Source of the DNA: Okeania sp. SIO2B3
GTDB taxonomy: Bacteria; Cyanobacteriota; Cyanobacteriia; Cyanobacteriales; Microcoleaceae
Length of the DNA stretch: 39,283 nucleotides
NCBI RefSeq assembly: GCF_010672525.1
Contig: NZ_JAAHGH010000073.1
Coordinates: forward strand, 1 to 39,283
Direction: 5' to 3'
The position numbers were made by a program, and so were the translations under genes. Below the pieces are notes generated by a model that had not been told where the DNA came from, made no database searches, and saw only the letters and a list, made by a program, of their open reading frames with translations. Shown in pieces: positions 1,322 through 27,420 of the stretch (positions are counted from its first letter, which is position 1; every line of letters starts with the position of its first letter).

Positions 1322-4300
1322 ATGAATAAACCTAGATACAAAAAGATGATGAAATGCAAAATATGTGAATCTATTTCTTTAAAATTTTCTGAAGCTCATA
1401 TCCTGAACAAAAAATATAAAATCGACTACTTTCAATGTCAAAACTGCAACTTTATCCAAACAGAATATCCTTACTGGTTAAGTGAAGCTTATTCTCAAGC
1501 GATCGCCTCTAGTGATGAGGGTTTAATCTTCAGAAATTTGATGTTATCTCAAGTTACAAAGAATATTATTGATCGACTGTTTGACTCAGAGGAAAAATTC
1601 CTCGACTTCGGTGGTGGATATGGTTTATTTGTTAGATTGATGCGGGATATTAAATACAAGTTTGATTGGCAAGACAAATACTGTGAAAATCTCTTTGCCC
1701 AACACTTTAAATCTACCCCAAACCAAAAATATGAGTTAGTTACTGCTTTTGAGTTACTAGAACATTTAGTTAATCCTATTTCTGATATTCGAGAAATTTT
1801 AAATTACTCCCAAAATATCCTTTTCAGCACAGAAATATTACCGCCAGACAATCCTAAACCTAATCAGTGGTGGTATTACGCTACGGATGAAGGTCAACAC
1901 ATATCTATATATACAGTTAAATCTCTCCAAATTATTGCTCAGAAATTTCACCTCAATTTTTATACTAACTACTCATCACTTCATTTATTAACGGAGAAAA
2001 AAATATCTCCAGCTTTCTGTGAAGCACTCTTAAAATATGATGCGGAAAATCTCCGAAAAATTCTTAGACAAAATCGGGATTATCTCAAAACACTAGAGAG
2101 AATTTTAGGCAAGGAAGAAGGAGGAGGTCAGAAGGAAGAAGAAATTTCTTTCAATCTCCCAACATCTACCCCAAAATCTCAACAACTCTCAGACAAAACT
2201 CAAATTTTTCAGCAACAAGAAGTAGAAGGGATAAATCAAGAAGAAATTTCTTTCAATCTCCCAACATCTACCCCAAAATCTCAACAACTCTCAGACAAAA
2301 CTCAAATTTTTCAGCAACAAGAAGTAGAAGGGATAAATCAAGAACTAAATTCTTTCAATCTCCCAACATCTACCCCAAAATCTCAACAACTCTCAGATGA
2401 AACTGAATTTTTACACCAGGGAAAAGGAGGAGGTATAAATCAAGAAGAAATTTCTCTCAATTTCCCAACATCTACCCCAAAATCTCCAGAACTCTCAGAC
2501 AAAACTCAAATTTTTCAGCAACAAGAAGTAGAAGGGATAAATCAAGAAGAAATTTCTTTCAATTTCCCAACATCTACTTCAAAATCTCAACAACTTTCAG
2601 ACAAAACTCAATTTTTACACCAGGGAAAAGGAGGAGGGATAAATCAAGAACTAAATTCTCTCCATCTCCCAACATCTACTTCAAAATCTCCAGAACTCTC
2701 AGACAAAACTGAATTTTTACACCAGGGAAAAGGAGGAAGGATAAATCAAGAACTAAATTCTCTCCATCTCCCAACATCTACTTCAAAATCTCCAGAACTC
2801 TCAGACAAAACTCAAATTTTTCAGCAACAAGAAGTAGAAGGGATAAATCAAGAAGAAATTTCTTTCAGTCTCCCAACATCTATCCCAAAATCTCAACAAC
2901 TCTCAGATGAAACTGAATTTTTACACCAGGGAAAAGGAGGAGGTATAAATCAAGAACTAAATTCTCTCAATCTCCCAAAATCTACTCCAAAATCTCAACA
3001 ACTCTCAGACAAAACTGAATTTTTACACCAGGGAAAAGGAGGAGGTATAAATCAAGAACTAAATTCTTTCAACATCCCAAAATCTACCCAAATATCTCAA
3101 CAACTCTCAGATGAAACTCAATTTTTTCAGCCACAAGAAGTAAATTCCCTCAAAATCTCAAAATCTACTCCAAAATCTCAACAACTCTCAGACAAAACTG
3201 AATTTTTTCAGCAGCAAGAAGGAGGAGGGATAAATCAAGAAGAAATTCCTATCAATCTCCCAAAATCTACCCAAAAATCTCAAGAACTCTCAGACAAAAC
3301 TGAATTTTTACACCAGGGAAAAGGAGGAGGGATAAATCAAGAACTAAATTCTCTCCATCTCCCAACATCTACTTCAAAATCTCCAGAACTCTCAGACAAA
3401 ACTGAATTTTTTCAGCAACAAGAACCAGGAGGCAAGAAGAAAGAAAAAATTTCTCTCAATCTCCCAAAATCTACTCAAAAACCTCAAGAACTCTCAGATG
3501 AAACTAAAATTTTATACCAGGAAAAAGCAGCAGTGAGAAGGAAAGAAGAAATGTCCCCAAAACCAGAAAAACTTACAGAGATAAACGAACTTTTATCAAC
3601 TCCAACAACTCCTCAAAAATTAGGAATTAATATTGCAGGTTTTGTGAAAGGAGAATTAGGAATAGGAGAAGGAGTAAGAGCAACACTTCGAGCAGTAGAA
3701 ACCACAAACATTCCCTTTGTTATCAACAATATTATCAGCACTCCCCATAGAAACTCCGACCAAAGCTACCAAAAATTTACCCAAGAAAATCCACATCCAA
3801 TTAACCTATTTCAAGTCAACGCCAATGAAGTCAAAACCTTTCTCAAAAAACCAACTGTCAGACAATATTTCACCAACAAATATAACATCGGTTTTTGGGC
3901 ATGGGAACTTCCGAAATTTCCTCCAGAATGGATAACAGCATTTACGCCATTTCACGAGATTTGGACTTACAGTAATTATTGTGCCGAATCTATTTCAATG
4001 GTGTCATCTATTCCTGTAATAAAAATGATGCCCAGTATTTCTCTACCAATTCCGAAAATTAGTAGAAAAGAACTAGGTTTACCAACAGACAAATTTATCT
4101 TTCTATTTATCTTTGACTTTTTTAGTCGCCTCGAACGAAAAAATCCACTCGCCACAATCACCGCATTTAAAAAAGCATTCGGAAACTCAAACCCAGATGT
4201 TTTGCTCCTGATAAAATCATCCAATTCTCAAAAATTTCCTAGAGATAAGTCACAGCTAATAAATAGTATTGGAGACTCCCCAAATATTAAACATATAGAT

Positions 4301-6178
4301 GGATATTTATCCAAAGAAAAAATCAATGCCTTGCTTTACCATTGCAATTGTTATGTATCTCTACATCGCGCCGAAGGCTTTGGCTTAACAATGGCAGAAG
4401 CAATGTTTTATGGCAAACCAGTTATTGCCACAGGCTATTCATCAAATACTGAATTTATGAATGTAGGAAATAGCTTTTTAGTCGAATATGAAAAAGTAGC
4501 GATCGCTGATAATTACGGACCATATAAACAAGGGGATATTTGGGCAAATCCTAACATCGAACATTGTGCCAATTTGATGAAATATGTGTTTAATAATTCT
4601 TCCAAAGTTCAAAAAATTGGATTAAAAGCTGCTGAAGATATTAAGTCATTACTCAGCCCAGAAGCTATGGGTAAAAAAATTCAAACTCGCCTCGAATATA
4701 TTGCTCAAGTCACGGAAAACTTTACTAATATTCCAACCACAAAATTATCTCAGTCTTCTCCAAGGAAGAAATCTCCACTTGTTAGTATTTGTATTCCTAC
4801 TTACAACGGAGAAAATTTTATCAGAGCTGCAATTAATAGTGCCCTTTCCCAAACTTACTCTAACCTAGAAATCATTATTTCCGATGATAATTCCACCGAC
4901 AAAACCCTGGAAATAGCCAAATCATTACAATCGGAAAATCCACAAATAGAATTTCGGATTATTTGTCATCAAAATTATGGCTTGGTGGGAAATTTAAACT
5001 TCTGTATTTCCCAAGTCAGAGGCAAATATATTAAATTCTTGTTCCAGGATGACTTGCTCGAAAAAAGCTGTATTGAAGAACTTGTCAAAATAGCAGAACA
5101 AGACTCAGAAATAGGTTTAATTTTTTCTCGCCGTCGCGTAATTTTAGAGTCTGGTGCAGAAAAGAATTCTACTTGTATAGCTGCTTATCGTGGTACTCAA
5201 GATTTACACAAAGATTGGTCAAATTTGAAAACTATTCAGTCAGGAAAAGATTTATTATTAGACCCTAATTTAATGAAATATCGTCTGAATAAAATTGGGG
5301 AACCAACAACAGTCTTAATTCCTAAAACTGTCTTTGAAAAAATCGGACTTTTTGACTCTAGTTTGACTCAAGTATTAGATATAGATATGTGGTTCAGGAT
5401 TATGGGAAATTACAAAATTGGATTTGTGGATAAGGATTTATCTCAACTTCGTATTCATCCCCGCCAACAAACTCAAATTAATCTTACTTCTGGGAAAAAT
5501 CCTCAAGATTATCAAAGGTTTTATCAGAAAATGTTGGAGAATCCTGTTTATAGTTTTTTAGCTCCAGAGGTGAAGGAAACTGTCAGACAAAAATTAGGAT
5601 TTTTGCTCAAACAAGACTTTTCTCAACTGCCAAATTTGGTGGAACAATATCGTCGCTTTCCTGGTGATGAATCGGTTTTAAATAGTATCCGTAAATTACG
5701 CCGTCAACTCGCTGAAAAGTTGTTAGGTTTATCAAATGAACAGTTGAAATATTTTTATCAAGCTGAAATAGGTGAAATTTATAAACTTCTGCTCAATAGT
5801 GGGATAAAAAATGAAGTTTTAACTGCTTCTGAAAAAGAGTTTGTTGTTAATCTACAGAAAAATTTTTCCGCAAAAAATATCTGGCAAAATCTTTTAGTAT
5901 TTCTGCTTTATCGCTTTGCTTTTCAGTTACCAATCAATTATCGTCAAGCGGTTTTGCCAAAATGGATTTTTACTGATTTTCTGAATTTTCTATTTGATAG
6001 ACCTCTAAATTTTCAGGAAGTTGGAGAATTGGAAAAGTATTGTGAGTATGTCAAAGATTTAATTGTGTATTTGAAAGGAAATGTTTGTAGTAATAGTAAC
6101 TCCGCAGTTAGACAAAGTATTGCTGCTTTTCTTGCTGACGATCTTGATTTAACTGTTTTTTCTTGTTGTGATTTTTAA
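1322..6178 (+). CDS. Methyltransferase-GT family 1-GT family 2 fusion with a 34-residue repeat linker
   Basis: A 1618-residue multidomain enzyme, probably cytoplasmic, likely to build and methylate a surface glycan. Residues 12-42 hold a Cys4 zinc ribbon (C12, C15, C39, C42), followed by a class I SAM methyltransferase (FLDFGGGYG near 93, FELLEHL near 143). Residues 270-738 are tandem repeats. A GT-B (family 1-like) domain starts near 765 (NIAGFVKGELGIGEG), with the nucleotide-sugar motif EGFGLTMAEAM near 1018. A GT2 domain starts near 1150 (VSICIPTYNG) and has FQDD near 1241. The last ~220 residues are helical-looking and unrecognised. M1, M9 and M10 are all possible starts; M10 sits directly before the zinc ribbon. 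No clear Shine-Dalgarno is visible. It stands alone downstream of a tandem array. Domain families are clear; donors and acceptors are unknown. Confidence 0.9.
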   Translation: MNKPRYKKMMKCKICESISLKFSEAHILNKKYKIDYFQCQNCNFIQTEYPYWLSEAYSQAIASSDEGLIFRNLMLSQVTKNIIDRLFDSEEKFLDFGGGYGLFVRLMRDIKYKFDWQDKYCENLFAQHFKSTPNQKYELVTAFELLEHLVNPISDIREILNYSQNILFSTEILPPDNPKPNQWWYYATDEGQHISIYTVKSLQIIAQKFHLNFYTNYSSLHLLTEKKISPAFCEALLKYDAENLRKILRQNRDYLKTLERILGKEEGGGQKEEEISFNLPTSTPKSQQLSDKTQIFQQQEVEGINQEEISFNLPTSTPKSQQLSDKTQIFQQQEVEGINQELNSFNLPTSTPKSQQLSDETEFLHQGKGGGINQEEISLNFPTSTPKSPELSDKTQIFQQQEVEGINQEEISFNFPTSTSKSQQLSDKTQFLHQGKGGGINQELNSLHLPTSTSKSPELSDKTEFLHQGKGGRINQELNSLHLPTSTSKSPELSDKTQIFQQQEVEGINQEEISFSLPTSIPKSQQLSDETEFLHQGKGGGINQELNSLNLPKSTPKSQQLSDKTEFLHQGKGGGINQELNSFNIPKSTQISQQLSDETQFFQPQEVNSLKISKSTPKSQQLSDKTEFFQQQEGGGINQEEIPINLPKSTQKSQELSDKTEFLHQGKGGGINQELNSLHLPTSTSKSPELSDKTEFFQQQEPGGKKKEKISLNLPKSTQKPQELSDETKILYQEKAAVRRKEEMSPKPEKLTEINELLSTPTTPQKLGINIAGFVKGELGIGEGVRATLRAVETTNIPFVINNIISTPHRNSDQSYQKFTQENPHPINLFQVNANEVKTFLKKPTVRQYFTNKYNIGFWAWELPKFPPEWITAFTPFHEIWTYSNYCAESISMVSSIPVIKMMPSISLPIPKISRKELGLPTDKFIFLFIFDFFSRLERKNPLATITAFKKAFGNSNPDVLLLIKSSNSQKFPRDKSQLINSIGDSPNIKHIDGYLSKEKINALLYHCNCYVSLHRAEGFGLTMAEAMFYGKPVIATGYSSNTEFMNVGNSFLVEYEKVAIADNYGPYKQGDIWANPNIEHCANLMKYVFNNSSKVQKIGLKAAEDIKSLLSPEAMGKKIQTRLEYIAQVTENFTNIPTTKLSQSSPRKKSPLVSICIPTYNGENFIRAAINSALSQTYSNLEIIISDDNSTDKTLEIAKSLQSENPQIEFRIICHQNYGLVGNLNFCISQVRGKYIKFLFQDDLLEKSCIEELVKIAEQDSEIGLIFSRRRVILESGAEKNSTCIAAYRGTQDLHKDWSNLKTIQSGKDLLLDPNLMKYRLNKIGEPTTVLIPKTVFEKIGLFDSSLTQVLDIDMWFRIMGNYKIGFVDKDLSQLRIHPRQQTQINLTSGKNPQDYQRFYQKMLENPVYSFLAPEVKETVRQKLGFLLKQDFSQLPNLVEQYRRFPGDESVLNSIRKLRRQLAEKLLGLSNEQLKYFYQAEIGEIYKLLLNSGIKNEVLTASEKEFVVNLQKNFSAKNIWQNLLVFLLYRFAFQLPINYRQAVLPKWIFTDFLNFLFDRPLNFQEVGELEKYCEYVKDLIVYLKGNVCSNSNSAVRQSIAAFLADDLDLTVFSCCDF
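2129..3535 (+). repeat. In-frame 102-bp minisatellite (14 units of 34 residues)
   Basis: Fourteen in-frame units lie between the methyltransferase and GT domains. Twelve are 34 residues; units 10 and 11 are 32 and 29, consistent with one internal 7-residue deletion. Each unit has the pattern INQEx-(S/N)-x-LPxST, then KSxxLSD(K/E)T, then one of two tails: IFQQQEVEG or FLHQGKGGG. The tails are mixed along the array and units 1 and 2 are nearly identical in DNA, which suggests recent expansion and recombination. The segment is rich in Ser, Thr, Gln, Lys and Glu and looks disordered. Confidence 0.93.
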
Positions 6179-15779: not shown

Positions 15780-16409
15780 TTAAATTCAAAATTAAAAAGT
15801 CAAAAGTCAAAAGTGAAGTCAAAAGTTAGGAGTCAGGAATTAAAAATTCAAAAATGAAAAGTTAAAAGTCACAAGTGAAATCAAAAGTTAGGATTCAGGA
15901 GTCAGAAATCAGAAGTGATTTTTGTAAAAACAATGATTTAATGAATAAAACTTGAAAATAATTGCTTAATTCCCCAAATTACTAAAAGTTAAGAGAGGAG
16001 GAATAAAAATCTGGAAATAATGGGTAGTAATAATTAAATTAAACAATAATTATGGCAGTAGAAAAAAATGAAGTAGGAAAGAAATTTCACAAGAATTTTT
16101 AAATCAAAAATTCAATAAAATTGAGAATAATTGCTCAATTATCCAAAGTAAGAAAGGAGGATGAACAAAGTAGGAAGTCAGAAGTGATTTTGGTAACAAA
16201 AATTATTAAATAAGGGAAACTTGAGAATAATTGCTCAATTATCCAAAGTAAGAAAGGAGGATGAACAAAGTAGGAAGTCAGAAGTCAGAAATCAGGAGTA
16301 ATTTTGGTAACAAAAACTGATAACTGATAACTGTTAACTGATAACTGAAATGACTCCTGTGAAACGAAAATTTAAACACAATTATTTATAGGCAAAAATT
16401 AAGAACAAA
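15780..16409. repeat. Leader region with a ~100-bp direct repeat and CTGATAA heptamers
   Basis: TTGAGAATAATTGCTCAATT starts at 16121 and 16221, and the following ~60 bp are identical, including AAGAAAGGAGGATGAACAAA. A diverged third copy lies at about 15951-16008 and also keeps an AGGAGG box. AAAAGTCAAAAGT-type repeats fill 15795-15915, and a four-copy CTGATAA run lies at 16316-16348. No gene. The HlyD-like gene starts at 16410 without a near-consensus Shine-Dalgarno. Confidence 0.75.
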
Positions 16410-18976: not shown

Positions 18977-20416
18977 TTAATTTGGAATTATTCTTTCTAC
19001 ACCTTCAGCATAAAAATTTCTGAGACGTTCAGCAAAACGAGTAAAGTCTGGTTCACTACTTAAAGAAACTCTTAGTAACTCAACTTTTTTGTATTTATTT
19101 TTAGGTATTTCCGATGGAATACCAACATGAAATTTTGGTTTAGGTCCTGGTCTTTCAGGACTTGAAATAACAACAACTTCATTTCCTGTTATATATCCTT
19201 CAAATTCAGGAAAAAATCGTTTCTCTGAAGGTTTGTGCTGTATACCAACAACTCGCTGTGAAAATGTTGAGTTACTCCAGTCTATTTTTACTTCTAGTTT
19301 TGGAGACTTTCCAGATATAAAATCGCCAAAACTTGAACCAAATATTTCTGTAGCGACGATAATCCCAAAATCTGAACCAAACTCTTTAGGCATATCATAA
19401 ACAATAGAATAAATTTTCTCAATAATTTTTTGAGCTATATTTTCAAATAATTTCTTTTGTGTATGAGAAGAACTTGAGAGTTTATTTTTAATTCTATCTA
19501 AAATAATTTCAGTTTTATTTTCTTCTTGCTCTTCTTGATTTTCTGATTCTAAAATATCTATCAAAGCTTCGTTAAGTGCAGAAATAGACTGCCAACGAGA
19601 ATCTATTTTTATCTCAAAAGTTCTATCAAAAACTCTATTTATTTTAGATAGTATAGATTCAGATAAATTAGGTGAAACTAATAACTTTTGTTTAGCTTCT
19701 TTTCTCTGATGTGGCTTATTTCCATTTTCAGAATCTAAAAGATAAAGAGGAAATTTCCCTGTGACAGTAAAAAACAAAATGCCACAAATTTGTGTAATAT
19801 CTGACCTGGGGTCTCTTTGTAAATTACTTTTTTCCCCAAGCTCTGGAAGTTGAAAAAATCTGTTTCCTAATTGTTGCCATGTTGGTGTTAAATCTTTAGC
19901 ATACTCATCAACTTTGTTGAAGGAAATCCCAAAATCTATTAATACTGGAGTGCTAATTTCGTTATTTTTGATGATGATATTATCAGGCTTAATATCTCTA
20001 TGTACTATTCCTCTTTGATGACAATATCCAAGAATATCTAATAGTTTTATTGTCAAATTTACAGCACTAAATATATTCATTACTTCTGATTTTATAAAAT
20101 CAGATAAGGTATCTCCAGGTATAAATTCAGTTACCAGATAAAGAGGTATATCTAAATTTTTAAACAGCTCGGAATTTGAATCAATTAATTTTGGTATTCC
20201 TGAGCAATCTATTGTTTCTAAAGCAACCACTTCCCTACGCATTCTTGAACGTCTTTCAGGGTCATTTTGTCTGTTAAGTTTTTTGAGAACGTATTGATTA
20301 GTTGGAAAAGAATTATTTTTAGGTTCGACTAGATAGGTTTGACCTTGACCACCGCCACCAATATTCTCAATAATTTTCCAATTTTCATCCCAAGGTTTAC
20401 TACTATTTTTACTCAT
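18977..20416 (-). CDS. Hanks-type Ser/Thr protein kinase with an unrecognised C-terminal domain
   Basis: A 479-residue cytosolic kinase with all key catalytic residues: glycine loop GGGGQGQTY (20-28), ATP lysine in VLKKL (K45), catalytic loop HRDIKPDN (139-146) and metal-binding DFG (161-163). RDPRSDITQICGILF further on is the subdomain IX region. Kinase homology ends near 280. Residues ~285-310 are charged (ENQEEQEENK), then ~310-479 form a separate domain with FGSDFGIIVATEIFG, a beta-rich stretch and EPDFTRFAERLRNFY; I do not recognise it, and it lacks PASTA, WD or FGE-sulfatase motifs. No transmembrane segment is evident. It stands alone, diverging from the plus-strand glycan genes across a tandem array, and may share an upstream region with them. 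Confidence 0.9.
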   Translation of the reverse strand: MSKNSSKPWDENWKIIENIGGGGQGQTYLVEPKNNSFPTNQYVLKKLNRQNDPERRSRMRREVVALETIDCSGIPKLIDSNSELFKNLDIPLYLVTEFIPGDTLSDFIKSEVMNIFSAVNLTIKLLDILGYCHQRGIVHRDIKPDNIIIKNNEISTPVLIDFGISFNKVDEYAKDLTPTWQQLGNRFFQLPELGEKSNLQRDPRSDITQICGILFFTVTGKFPLYLLDSENGNKPHQRKEAKQKLLVSPNLSESILSKINRVFDRTFEIKIDSRWQSISALNEALIDILESENQEEQEENKTEIILDRIKNKLSSSSHTQKKLFENIAQKIIEKIYSIVYDMPKEFGSDFGIIVATEIFGSSFGDFISGKSPKLEVKIDWSNSTFSQRVVGIQHKPSEKRFFPEFEGYITGNEVVVISSPERPGPKPKFHVGIPSEIPKNKYKKVELLRVSLSSEPDFTRFAERLRNFYAEGVERIIPN

Positions 20417-20589
20417 TTTAGATGTCTTTTTCTTTAATTATAGATATTAAAATCTACGAAATTATCATACGAATAATATTATCCATAATTTCTTTCTCAC
20501 AATTTACGCAACATAGGATTCGTAATTTGTACCTCCTAGCTGGAAATAGCGAACAAATTGAGTTTGAAATTAGGCTTAATGGAAAGTAA

Positions 20590-21290
20590 GTGAAAATCAG
20601 AAATAGAAATGTAATTCAACTCTATTGCCATATACGCAATAGTAAATTTTGCTCAGTCAGATGTGTCTGTGGATATTGCAATAGAAGCTTTTAGCTGAAA
20701 AATTCACAGACAAATTTAAGTGAAAATCAGAAATAGAAATGTAATTCAACTCTGTTGCTATATACGCAATAGTAAATTTTGCTCAATCAGATTTATCTGT
20801 GGATATTGCAATAGAAGCTTTTTGCTGAAAAATTCACAGACAAATTTAAGTGAAAATCAGAAATAGAAATGTAATTTAACTCTATTGCTACATACGCAAT
20901 AGGAATTTTTGCTCAATCAGATTTATCTGTGGATATTGCAATAGAAGCTTTTTGCTGAAAAATTCACAGACAAATTTAAGTGAAAATCAGAAATAGAAAT
21001 GTAATTCAACTCTATTGCTATATACGCAATAGTAAATTTTGCTCAGTCAGATTTATCTGTGGATATTGCAATAGAAGCTTTTTGCTGAAAAATTCACAGA
21101 CAAATTTAAGTGCAAATCAGAAATAGAAATGTAATTCAACTCTATTGCTATATACGCAATAGTAAATTTTGCTCAGTCAGATTTATCTGTGGATATTGCA
21201 ATAGAAGCTTTTTGCTGAAAAATTCACAGACAAATTTAAGTGCAAATCAGAAATAGAAATGTAATTCAACTCTGTTGCTATATACGCAAT
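20590..21290. repeat. Tandem array of a 130-bp unit (5.4 copies) with an internal hairpin
   Basis: Copies start at 20590, 20720, 20850, 20980, 21110 and 21240, the last being 51 bp. The spacing is exactly 130 bp every time. Each unit carries CTATTGC-7 nt-GCAATAG, a perfect 7-bp stem; in copies 2 and 6 the left arm is CTGTTGC, which keeps pairing by a G-U wobble, and loop bases vary. Except in the truncated last copy, a second pair of arms, TCTGTG and CACAGA, brackets the rest of the unit. The unit length is not a multiple of three. There are no unique spacers, so it is not a CRISPR array. It sits between the divergent kinase gene and the 580-residue membrane protein gene. Confidence 0.95.
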
Positions 21291-21449
21291 AACTAGATTT
21301 AATCAATTCCGAGCAAGAGGTTCTAATAACAGTGCTTAGTATTCCCCTCAGTATTTAACCGAACATGATATTAAATTTGATTTTTTAAATATTCCAGAAA
21401 ATGTCTGTATATTGGTAATATTTCCTAGAGCGATCGCCACTTCCCAATA

Positions 21450-23192
21450 ATGTTAAAAGTCTTTTCCCGAAACAGAATATTATTACTAACCCTCTATATT
21501 TTCCCAGTCTTATTACTCCTCTGGTTTCTTGCTAATTTTAGTGTCAACGTTCCCTACTGGGACCAATGGAGATTAACCCCTATCTTTGAGAGAGTTGCTG
21601 AAGGAAACGCCACATTTTTTGACTTTTTCACAGTACACGGACATCACAGAATATTAATACCAAAATTAATCATTACCACCTTAGCTTTTGCCACTAAATG
21701 GAACACCCAAGCTGAAATAATTTGTAGCGTAATTTTTGTCATCATCACATTTTTTGCTATCTGCAAAATAGCCGAAATTCAATTCCATAATAAAAACAAA
21801 AATATCCTACATATAGCAAATATATTAGTCAGTCTATTATTATTTTCTTTAGTACAACATCAGAATTGGTTATGGGGATTTACCCTATTTTGGTTTCTGA
21901 CAAATTTATGCTTAATCATCGCAATCTATTTTATTTACGCATTGGATAATTTTTCAGAAAAAACTCAAATATTTTTGGCAGCAATATCCTGTTTTATTGG
22001 CAGTTTTACATTAATACAAGGATTATTTTCTTGGCTTGTACTTATACCATCAATATTTTGCCTGGAAGGTAAATCCAAACAAAAAATTAGTAGAGTAACT
22101 ATTTGGATTTTACTCTTTATACTTTCATGTTTGATATATTCAATTAACTATAATCCTATTCGAGAACCAAAACCATTTTTATTTACAGAGCAACCATTGC
22201 TAATCATCAATTACTTTTTAGCTATTTTAGGTTTACCTTTAGTCAGAATTTCTATTCCAGCAATTTTGATAGGATTAATATTATTGTCTGGTTTTATATT
22301 TTTCACATTTTATTTTCTCAAGAAACCTTGGTATAAATTTACCTTTGCCCCGGCAGCTATTCCTTGGTTAACAATAGGAACATTTTCTCTCATTTCTGCT
22401 CTATCCATTTCTGTAGGCAGGGCAGAATATGGTGTGGAAAATGCAATGATTTCTTCGCGGTATACAACTACGTCAATTTTATTCATTATTTCCCTAATTT
22501 ATCTGTTTGCTTTATTCCTGCAACAGCAGCAAAAGTATTTATCAATATATAAAATTTTTGCTGTAGTAATGACAGGAATTATGATGGTTAACTCGGTGTA
22601 TGTTGTTGCTAGTGTAAAATCAAGTTTTCCCTACATGGAAAGTCGGAAAGAGTGTCTAGAAATAATTAACTATTTGGAAGATTCAGAATTTATTCAAGAA
22701 TCACAGAATAGTTGTTTAGTATTAATGAATGGCAAAACGTGGTTAGTCAGAGAAGGTGCAGAAATTATGGCAAAACTAGGATGGCGAGAATTTCCTCAAA
22801 ATTTGGAATTTATTACAAAAACAAAACAAAATTATGGTTATTTAGATAATCCTCAAACAACTGAAAATACCCTAATTATTAATAGGGATGAAACTCTTAG
22901 TTTAGGGGGATGGGCAATTAGACCAAATAGAAATAAACAACCGAATCTAGTCTTACTTTCTTTTGGTCAAAATAAATCTTTCTTTGCTAATGCTATTGTC
23001 AATTTAGAGAGTAATGATATTGCTAAAGTTCTGAAGTCAAAAAAGTATAACAGACCGCGATGGAAAGTCACATTTTCAGCTAAGTCTTTACCTATAGGAG
23101 AAACGATAATTAATGCTTGGGTTTATAATTCTGATAAACAAGAATTTATTAAATTGAATGATGAAGTTAAAGTCAGGGTCGAAGATGGTTGA
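21450..23192 (+). CDS. Multipass membrane protein, GT-C-like, with a C-terminal beta domain
   Basis: A 580-residue inner-membrane protein of a glycan locus, probably a polyprenyl-linked glycosyltransferase or glycan-handling protein (inference). About ten or eleven hydrophobic segments lie between residues 8 and 390. The first large loop has VPYWDQW (near 34) and HGHHRILIPKLI (near 63), acidic and His residues placed as in GT-C enzymes. GVENAMISSRYTTT near 330 closely resembles GVEQAIASRYAT in the 581-residue protein at 32569, so the two are paralogues. Residues ~475-580 form a soluble domain starting with LSLGGWAIRPN. ATG at 21450 follows a HIP1 site by 13 bp; no strong Shine-Dalgarno. I cannot name a family with certainty. 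Confidence 0.85.
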   Translation: MLKVFSRNRILLLTLYIFPVLLLLWFLANFSVNVPYWDQWRLTPIFERVAEGNATFFDFFTVHGHHRILIPKLIITTLAFATKWNTQAEIICSVIFVIITFFAICKIAEIQFHNKNKNILHIANILVSLLLFSLVQHQNWLWGFTLFWFLTNLCLIIAIYFIYALDNFSEKTQIFLAAISCFIGSFTLIQGLFSWLVLIPSIFCLEGKSKQKISRVTIWILLFILSCLIYSINYNPIREPKPFLFTEQPLLIINYFLAILGLPLVRISIPAILIGLILLSGFIFFTFYFLKKPWYKFTFAPAAIPWLTIGTFSLISALSISVGRAEYGVENAMISSRYTTTSILFIISLIYLFALFLQQQQKYLSIYKIFAVVMTGIMMVNSVYVVASVKSSFPYMESRKECLEIINYLEDSEFIQESQNSCLVLMNGKTWLVREGAEIMAKLGWREFPQNLEFITKTKQNYGYLDNPQTTENTLIINRDETLSLGGWAIRPNRNKQPNLVLLSFGQNKSFFANAIVNLESNDIAKVLKSKKYNRPRWKVTFSAKSLPIGETIINAWVYNSDKQEFIKLNDEVKVRVEDG

Positions 23193-23809: not shown

Positions 23810-24199
23810 TTAATTGTTAATTGTTCCTTTTGAATGATGTTGTTTTTGATTATCGACATAAGCGATCGCTCGTTCTAGTTGTGTTTTTCCCAAAGAAAAG
23901 ACACCATATCCTGCTTGCCAAGCAAATTTATTTTCCTTCGGAGGTAGAACATTATTTAGATAATGAGAACTACTGCCTTTAATATTTTTCACAAAATCAG
24001 AAATAGCTAAAGTAGGTGGGACTGAAACTACTAAATGAATATGATTTTCTGTACCATTAATCGCATGAATAATACAATTAAGAGCATTAGCTTTGCCAAT
24101 AATATAATGATAAAGTTGAGGTTCTATATTTAGTGTGATTAGAGGTTTTCTTTCTTTAGTTGACCAAACAAAATGATAGAAAAGTCGCCATAATGCCAT
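23810..24199 (-). CDS. RAYT-type Y1 (HUH) transposase, IS200/IS605-like
   Basis: A 129-residue single-domain enzyme of usual family length. It has the HUH metal motif in NHIHLVV (H53, H55) and the catalytic tyrosine in WQAGYGVFSLG (Y98), so it looks intact. Such enzymes nick and rejoin single-stranded DNA at hairpin ends. No tnpB-like partner is present, and REP palindromes lie on both sides (23365-23402 and 24252-24442). This suggests a REP-associated tyrosine transposase acting on short palindromes instead of a classical insertion sequence. The C-terminus beyond QKQHHSKGT runs into an A+T heptamer repeat (TTAATTG), which may have altered the last residues. Confidence 0.88.
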   Translation of the reverse strand: MALWRLFYHFVWSTKERKPLITLNIEPQLYHYIIGKANALNCIIHAINGTENHIHLVVSVPPTLAISDFVKNIKGSSSHYLNNVLPPKENKFAWQAGYGVFSLGKTQLERAIAYVDNQKQHHSKGTINN

Positions 24200-26511: not shown

Positions 26512-26556
26512 GAAGGAGTTATTTCAGTTATCAATTATCAGTTATCAGTTATCAGT

Positions 26557-26579: not shown

Positions 26580-26608
26580 TTGAATACTAAATAAAATATT
26601 TTGTTCAT

Positions 26609-27420
26609 CGGTAAATTCTCAAGCTGTAAAAGACTCAAAACTAAGAATTGGAAATTAAATAGATTTCGGCAAACTTTCTAGTTGAAGTGATTTTTCAGAG
26701 AGGGTGAAATTTTGTCTATCTACTTACTCAAAGGCAGAATCAAAATCGGCAAATTCTCAAACTGTCAAATACTCAAAACTCGGAATTGAGAAGATTTCGG
26801 CAAACTTTCTAGCAGAAGTGATTTTTTAGAGAGGGTGAAATTTTCTCTATCTACTTACCCAAAGGCAGAATCAAAATCGGCAAATTCTCAAACTGTCAAA
26901 TACTCAAAACTCGGAATTGAGAATTATCAAGATTTATGTCAACTTTCTAGCTGAAGTAATTTTTTAGAGAGAGTGAAATTTTTCTTATCTACTTACTTCA
27001 AAGAAAGAATCAAAATCGCCAAATTATCAAACTGTAAAATACTCAAAACTCCAAATTGGGAATTGAGAAAATTTCGGCAAACTTTCTAGCTGAGGTTATT
27101 TTCCAGAGAGGGTGAAATTTTGCCTATCCACTTACTCAAAGGCAGAATGAAAATCGGCAAATTCTCAAACTGTAAAATACTCAAAACTCCAAATTGGGAA
27201 TTGAGAAAATTTCGGCAAACTTTCTAGCTGAGGTTATTTTCCAGAGAGGGTGAAATTTTGCCTATCCACTTACTCAAAGGCAGAATGAAAATCGGCAAAT
27301 TCTCAACTTGTCAAATTCTCAATTCTCAGTTCTGAGTTTTGAGAATATTTCGGCAAACTTTCTAGCTGAAGTGATTTTTAATAGAATGCTTTATTTTGCT
27401 TATCTATCTAGTTAAAGGCA
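26609..27420. repeat. Tandem array of a ~138-bp unit, six copies
   Basis: The landmark CGGCAAATTCTCAA (or a variant) recurs at 26609, 26747, 26878, 27017, 27155 and 27293, giving spacings of 138, 131, 139, 138 and 138. Each unit also has CGGCAAACTTTCTAGC, AGAGAGGGTGAAATTTT and CTTACTCAAAGGCAGAAT. Copies 4 and 5 are nearly identical. All frames contain stops. The array lies between rfbC and the 373-residue gene. Confidence 0.93.

Follow-up and report, generated by a model that had tools for sequence, protein, structure and literature searches.

Genome-dispersed, non-coding satellite families were described as rare in prokaryotes in the accessible part of one report (PMC6749651). Among described repeats, the satellite families of Bacillus (Subirana and Messeguer, PMC8161180) come closest to the arrays analyzed here. 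In the accessible portions of the reports on these families, short sequences frequently occur alongside their reverse within one repeat, the satellites are species- or clade-specific, and conservation between relatives is only partial (PMC8161180, PMC6749651). The SDR elements of Nostoc, which Elhai is said to have described in 2008, are reportedly dispersed, 21-27 nt long and in some cases hairpin-forming. Topic-level searches of the literature, which reached few subscription journals and were framed by subject, listed no title or abstract opening that describes the box or its arrays.

Layout of the 130-bp array

The window is the whole analyzed stretch of 39,283 nt from Okeania sp. SIO2B3 (contig NZ_JAAHGH010000073.1). 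Tandem Repeats Finder (TRF) placed an array at 20587-21291 with a period of 130, 5.4 copies, 96% matches and 0% indels. The initial annotation, made from the letters alone, had counted six copies in exact 130-bp register between two divergent genes. The register and the divergent neighbors (a kinase-like ORF on the minus strand and a 580-aa ORF on the plus strand) were confirmed, and the copies proved to be five full units and a truncated sixth of 56 bp. A full unit holds palindrome A, with arms CTATTGC and GCAATAG around a 7-nt loop, and palindrome A starts in exact register in all six copies. The features of the locus are as follows.

18977..20416, minus strand: protein-kinase-like flanking gene, 479 aa (PF00069)
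20587..21291, no strand: 130-bp tandem array, five full units plus a truncated sixth (TRF, 96% matches)
20622..20642, no strand: palindrome A, unit 1 (CTATTGC CATATAC GCAATAG, 21 bp), the same box as found genome-wide
20664..20684, no strand: decayed palindrome B, unit 1, with the GCAATAG right arm remaining and the left arm gone
20752..20772, no strand: palindrome A, unit 2, left arm CTGTTGC
20882..20902, no strand: palindrome A, unit 3
21012..21032, no strand: palindrome A, unit 4
21142..21162, no strand: palindrome A, unit 5
21272..21292, no strand: palindrome A, truncated unit 6 (CTGTTGC...GCAATAA), with the array end falling within it
21450..23192, plus strand: flanking ORF, 580 aa, without a Pfam or NCBIfam family

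The annotated CTGTTGC left arm of copies 2 and 6 and the variation of loop bases from copy to copy were both correct. The hairpin reported for every unit is indeed present in each; in copy 6, however, the right end reads GCAATAA and the outer C-G pair is lost. Decayed palindrome B recurs each 130 bp across the full units. When 130-bp units of matching composition were simulated, 21% of them contained a perfect 7-bp inverted repeat with a loop of 3-14, so the hairpin in any one unit is weak evidence. A CRISPR array, with a constant repeat and unrelated spacers, was ruled out, as the entire 130-bp unit repeats at 96% matches.

The window contains several other repeats. A second tandem array at 26607-27378 has a 138/277-bp period; it served as a control, and at a threshold of E 0.001 the rest of the genome contained no related sequence. 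An array with a 274-bp period lies at 2-858 (3.2 copies, 81% matches), and 102-bp (34-codon) repeats occur at 2113-3552 within a 1618-aa ORF (1322-6178). Heptamer runs of AACTGAT and TCAGTTA are located at 16315-16348 and 26524-26556; they are a rotation and the reverse complement, respectively, of the TAACTGA direct repeats, which the accessible part of PMC4679880 describes from Beggiatoaceae and some cyanobacteria.

The same box throughout the genome

The window genome comprises 10.0 Mb on 249 contigs. When a single unit was used as the query against it, the array itself yielded six units and the other matches were partial, many of them at the palindrome and evenly spaced. The pattern CTATTGC-N(3-14)-GCAATAG gave 33 sites, every one with a loop of 7, and TRTTGC-N7-GCAAYA gave 172 sites; the control gave 0 for each. 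The sequence context of 135 of the 172 sites was read, and 131 of these sites fell within 19 runs of at least two while four were single. One perfect palindrome (G000:C184:53995, G000 being the window genome) falls within an ORF and its loop is not typical; it was not treated as a box, although it is still counted in the 33-, 172- and 135-site figures. The initial annotation had cautioned that the hairpin could be chance, a caution that holds for a single unit and fails for the genome-wide recurrence. The palindrome is a real conserved feature, as had been claimed.

The box consensus is YTRTTGC-N7-GCAAYAR, 21 bp, with one or two boxes per unit. The arms were 7 apart in 684 of 692 arm pairs lying at most 20 bp from each other, although many of these loci were fetched with 7-spaced patterns. 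Unit periods include 44, 49, 51-53, 55-60, 71, 76, 86, 146, 168 and 413 bp, the commonest spacing of a run being about 41-413 bp. Spacers were clustered by single linkage for 83 runs drawn from the window genome and its relatives; a few of these runs entered through the relaxed motif and do not represent true arrays. The outcome was multi-array families of 50, 17, 7 and 3 runs and six singletons; the largest cluster is probably chained in part by a short common tail. The relaxed motif, which lets in some false runs, was used for the run periods, for the spacer clustering and for one comparison among the loop inversions below (locus L119). Duplicate loci L169, L193 and L195 were dropped from the period, loop-core, box-edge and flip counts, and removal of sites with repeated identical context reduced the loop-core and box-edge set from 656 to 618.

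Boxes were largely sampled by pattern, and conservation in the motif-selected sets is partly ascertainment because many loci were fetched with box patterns. The loop core YAT, in either orientation, occurred in 613 of 618 arm-selected sites, a figure that itself reflects ascertainment in part, because the genome_contigs loci had been retrieved with a loop-fixing pattern. This near constancy suggests sequence recognition or common descent over mere complementarity. Array edges lay within 10 bp of a box 10 times on the left and 16 times on the right, against 7.7 expected per side (36 readable of 39 arrays), a figure that is biased by the extension rule and serves as a lead only.

The arrays are mostly intergenic with respect to ORFs of at least 100 aa: 68 of 79 overlapped none, 10 overlapped one partially and one array lay inside. 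Both neighboring genes were readable for 42 arrays and were co-directional in 31 cases, divergent in six and convergent in five; in these counts, for which no null was computed, there was no sign of operator-like placement or of a terminator role.

Some loci are composite. At L025 (G000:C184:201500-203400), box units of 60 and 55 bp alternate, giving a 115-bp higher-order period, and the unit of about 129 bp (42 + 87) at orthologous window loci is composite as well. The left flank of L033 (G000:C177:49059-49153) is an unrelated interspersed repeat of about 95 bp that occurs in many places, among the matches listed, in all five genus genomes.

Distribution across genomes

Genomes are labeled here as follows, by inferred correspondence: G418 to G421 are O. 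hirsuta, SIO2C9, SIO1I7 and SIO3B5, G429 is Hydrocoleum sp. CS-953, G430 is SIO3I5, G431 is SIO2F4 and G389 is MO_207.B10. Copy numbers are not certain, as several of the assemblies are drafts or metagenome-assembled genomes (MAGs) and contain N gaps.

That related arrays exist elsewhere held for the window's own genome, for its genus-mates and for further relatives. Across the 386 genomes of a phylum sample, the window genome had 172 sites, the next 16 and all others at most 11; outside the window's family no genome exceeded 11. All five genomes of Okeania had between 120 and 187 sites. The seven genomes of a second genus (g5) had 2, 10, 16, 36, 162, 253 and 310. Counts for individual genomes were 162 in Hydrocoleum sp. 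CS-953, 253 in SIO2F4, 310 in SIO3I5 and 70 in MO_207.B10, and the remaining 48 of the 61 family genomes searched had 0-6 sites each.

A scan of genome_contigs, which may not cover the window genome, with TATTGCGACATACGCAAYA matched 61 stretches. Sixty of these came from Okeania, Hydrocoleum sp. CS-953 and Microcoleaceae MO_207.B10, and one was a single match in a Clostridiales MAG. The scan of viral_contigs returned 14 isolated stretches with one box match each, and plasmid and phage records had no match to the window array. On these grounds a phage or plasmid origin was rejected.

Orthologous arrays at the window locus

An array lies upstream of the same 580-aa gene, at its start region, in all five Okeania genomes. 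The number of A boxes at this locus ranges from about 2 in O. hirsuta to 14 in SIO3B5, where there is an N gap. Three genomes of the genus have a unit of about 129 bp with two palindromes, 42 and 87 bp apart. In these three, palindrome B is largely intact (e.g., TTGTTGCGGATATAGCAATAG); in the window genome and SIO1I7 its left arm is lost and GCAATAG mostly kept. Among the best 40 candidates per genome, the kinase-gene part of the query adjoins the array only in G420, and the matches in G418, G421 and elsewhere are on other contigs.

Identity between the two species groups was 97% for the A arms, 78% for the loop, 72% for the left flank, 71% for the tail and 67% for the rest of the unit. Random sets of 14 columns matched the arm value in 0.2% of cases, and two of 110 windows of the same geometry were as conserved as the arms, one of the two being the arms themselves. 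For this comparison and its controls, units were taken in register and were not motif-selected, and window unit 6, G420 edge units 1 and 5, G418 unit 2 and N-containing units were omitted.

Loop inversions

Units of the same run were compared when their 25 + 25-bp flanks matched at 36 or more of 50 positions, and a flip was scored when at least 6 of 7 loop bases were reverse-complemented. By this definition the loop was inverted between some units in 10 of 83 testable arrays, exactly (7/7) in six and at 6/7 in four. Three of these arrays are in SIO3B5, two in SIO1I7 and one each in SIO2C9, SIO2F4, O. hirsuta, the window genome and G429; the single Clostridiales match (L158) was left out of the counts. 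When offsets from -25 to +39 were scanned, the loop gave 10 arrays and each of the 64 other offsets 0 or 1, for a total of four, although the filter biases offsets within the matched 25-bp flanks against flips. The flip controls thus have limits: the pooled one, which accepted a flip at any one of 86 flanking offsets, responded in 11 of 82 arrays. Per offset this is about 0.13 arrays, compared with 10 at the loop.

Individual arrays illustrate the pattern. At L119, the loops read GACATAC or GTATGTC in a 119-bp register, three units being opposite to the fourth, with flanks of the flipped units identical at 47-48 of 50 positions. One of nine units is flipped at L251 (best flank match 49/50). 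At L223, where one unit has an N stretch, one inner unit and an edge unit are flipped relative to the others. Between the window genome and G429, units of the 76-bp family mostly agree in their flank bases and have opposite loops.

Polymerase template switching at short inverted repeats inverts the spacer and homogenizes the arms, according to the accessible portions of two reports (PMC8604942, PMC8794818). In the accessible part of the yeast study of template switching, spacer inversion was seen only for arms of more than 9 bp; the arms here measure 7-8 bp, a point against this reading. A flipped loop between unchanged arms is the mark that template switching in a hairpin would be expected to leave. 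In-register loop inversions in tandem copies make template-switch-like events countable in a bacterial satellite.

A satellite superfamily on a palindromic, probably hairpin-forming box

The arrays form a satellite superfamily that is largely confined to one clade, Okeania and close relatives. Its members share a 21-bp box whose arms are almost fixed in spacing and, at the window locus, conserved, and whose loop can be inverted. The shared palindrome and the flipped loops point to a DNA hairpin that has been copied and amplified and not to a small-RNA gene. We consider it somewhat probable that the superfamily is lineage-restricted, built on a hairpin-forming palindromic box and amplified by slippage or unequal exchange, with the box perhaps recognized. 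The palindrome would fold as a DNA hairpin during replication, and template switching within the hairpin would flip the loop. Slippage or unequal exchange between copies may then enlarge and homogenize the array, by which DNA neighboring the box would become the repeat unit. The least certain step is a putative lineage-specific DNA-binding or hairpin-processing activity that would keep the box sequence over and above its self-complementarity. In this the box would be analogous to the CENP-B box, which is shared by eukaryotic satellites that are otherwise unrelated.

The loss of the palindrome B arm in two of five genomes and the amplified uncompensated mutants noted below indicate that the box is not strictly required in each copy. 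Spacer sequence in common links 50 of 83 runs, so common descent and not selection explains part of the resemblance.

We also entertain, tentatively, a more specific version in which a putative lineage-specific protein recognizes the hairpin or cruciform of the box and its binding or nicking drives both loop inversion and local amplification. If this were true, any DNA adjacent to a box could turn into a satellite, which would make the box the bacterial equivalent of a satellite seed motif, the CENP-B box being an example of one. With this superfamily it becomes feasible to study whether tandem amplification is seeded by a hairpin, and to search for a protein by which it is recognized.

Alternative explanations

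The box may instead be a miniature mobile palindromic element, SDR-like, or REP-like and moved by a tyrosine transposase, with the arrays being secondary; we regard this as unlikely. A hairpin-forming box of 21 bp that is dispersed over many loci is what such an element would resemble, singleton boxes account for 29 of 118 runs overall and for four of the 23 runs read in the window genome, and the Nostoc SDRs are reportedly similar in size and in part hairpin-forming. However, the strict box was found near none of the 15 Y1-transposase (PF01797) loci of the genome, searched with flanks of up to 1.5 kb, some of which end at contig ends. These loci represent Y1 transposases in general, and the relaxed pattern gave six matches in five of them, none of which was a box. 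Of 612 box edges, 87 had GTAG close by; none had CGTC. Eleven of 18 queried own-genome loci were followed into relatives; boxes were present in most orthologues and no clean empty site was seen, the box-less cases (L022 and L032 in G420, L034 in G419) being partial locus matches. In the orthologue of the L036 array (L229, G421:C519:1-2500, at about 330) there is a single box with a 6-nt loop instead of 7. The isolated single matches in viral contigs, and the lack of any array match in plasmid and phage records, also argue against a mobile element.

The window itself carries an IS200-type Y1 transposase gene (23810-24199, minus strand; PF01797, NF033573) about 2.5 kb from the array. The RAYT cut-off, which was applied to this gene only, is 80 bits; the gene scored 22.7 and by this cut-off is not a RAYT.

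A protein-binding array that is itself under selection, as a nucleoid organizer, partition site or silencing site, is likewise a doubtful reading. Arm conservation at the window locus, the loop core common to nearly all sites (under biased sampling), the fixed arm spacing and the presence of an array at the same place in five genomes would all suit it, and the accessible part of PMC8161180 proposes a nucleoid role for the 52-nt Bacillus satellites. Yet the number of A boxes at one locus differs severalfold between genomes, unit length varies, and the box is at background level in the 48 remaining genomes of the same family.

An RNA-level element, whether a repeated small RNA, a terminator or an RNA-binding site, is improbable. 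The initial annotation had read the arm changes as stem-preserving and had named a repeated small RNA as one possibility; neither compensating change nor an RNA role was supported. Compensatory change in the stem was not supported in 23 aligned orthologous units (of 26, three from G421 being omitted): 90.4% of cells pair, compared with a shuffle mean of 89.6%, and the observed covariation score was reached by 57 of 500 shuffles. Only two cells changed on both sides, both in helix B, which was 82.6% paired as compared with 98.1% for helix A. Pairing with slid partners fell to 25-66%, a fall that is inevitable for any palindrome. Among 569 oriented sites, compensated G-C at variable pair 3 was seen five times versus 14.5 expected from independent columns, and C-G plus T-A at the outermost pair was in mild excess (234 versus 210 expected). 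In some arrays, uncompensated arm mutants have been amplified. Moreover, pairing-preserving changes at short palindromes can stem from template switching and not from RNA selection.

The second arm pair claimed for each full unit, TCTGTG/CACAGA, does occur in the five full units; orthologous arrays, however, do not keep it. Full pairing was limited to the window genome and SIO1I7, and at two of the six pairs the 8 rows (of 23) that do pair all come from the window genome and its closest relative. Folding of the 21-mer exceeds that of its shuffles (z -4.0 to -5.0) and a T-run follows the stem in some families, which would speak for an RNA element, and transcription is reported for the 52-nt Bacillus satellites in the accessible text of PMC8161180. 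Against it, folding of the whole unit is unremarkable (z -1.43 and -1.00), the window has no Rfam match at gathering thresholds and the loop occurs in both orientations.

A chance hairpin within an ordinary local tandem duplication, for which the frequency of 7-bp stems in simulated units and the purely local second array of the window might speak, is already refuted by the 33 and 172 sites with none in the control and by the 120-187 sites in each of four other Okeania genomes, and we give it next to no credence. The interpretation of the initial annotation is, as a whole, partly supported; its suggestion of a DNA structure or a protein-binding array may still hold. We retain the hairpin-based satellite superfamily as the preferred reading.

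Comparison with known systems

The SDR elements of Nostoc are reportedly alike in size, hairpin formation, cyanobacterial host and dispersal; here, tandem units dominate, and no genome outside the window's family has more than 11 sites. REP/REPIN elements with their RAYT are, in the accessible portions of PMC3116915 and PMC3733652, short intergenic palindromes that sometimes form tandem modules with flanking sequence. The present boxes differ in having no Y1 transposase gene beside them in the window genome, within flanks of up to 1.5 kb, and no GTAG/CGTC tag rule, and assignment to REP/REPIN was rejected on the tetranucleotide tag and the adjoining transposase.

The spacer inversions attributed to template switching in the accessible text of PMC8604942 and PMC8794818 resemble those described here in that the loop is reverse-complemented and the arms stay; ours differ in being recurrent in tandem copies of one superfamily, with arms of 7-8 bp.

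The 52-nt and 20-21-nt Bacillus satellites (Subirana and Messeguer, PMC8161180) are alike in that several non-coding tandem families share short sequences, and several such families were found per genome here as well. As far as the accessible text describes them, the Bacillus families have a constant unit length and species-specific sequences, whereas the units here are not constant, with run spacings of about 41 to 413 bp. Unlike them, the arrays described here have one 21-bp palindrome in common across genera, with almost fixed spacing and with loop inversions.
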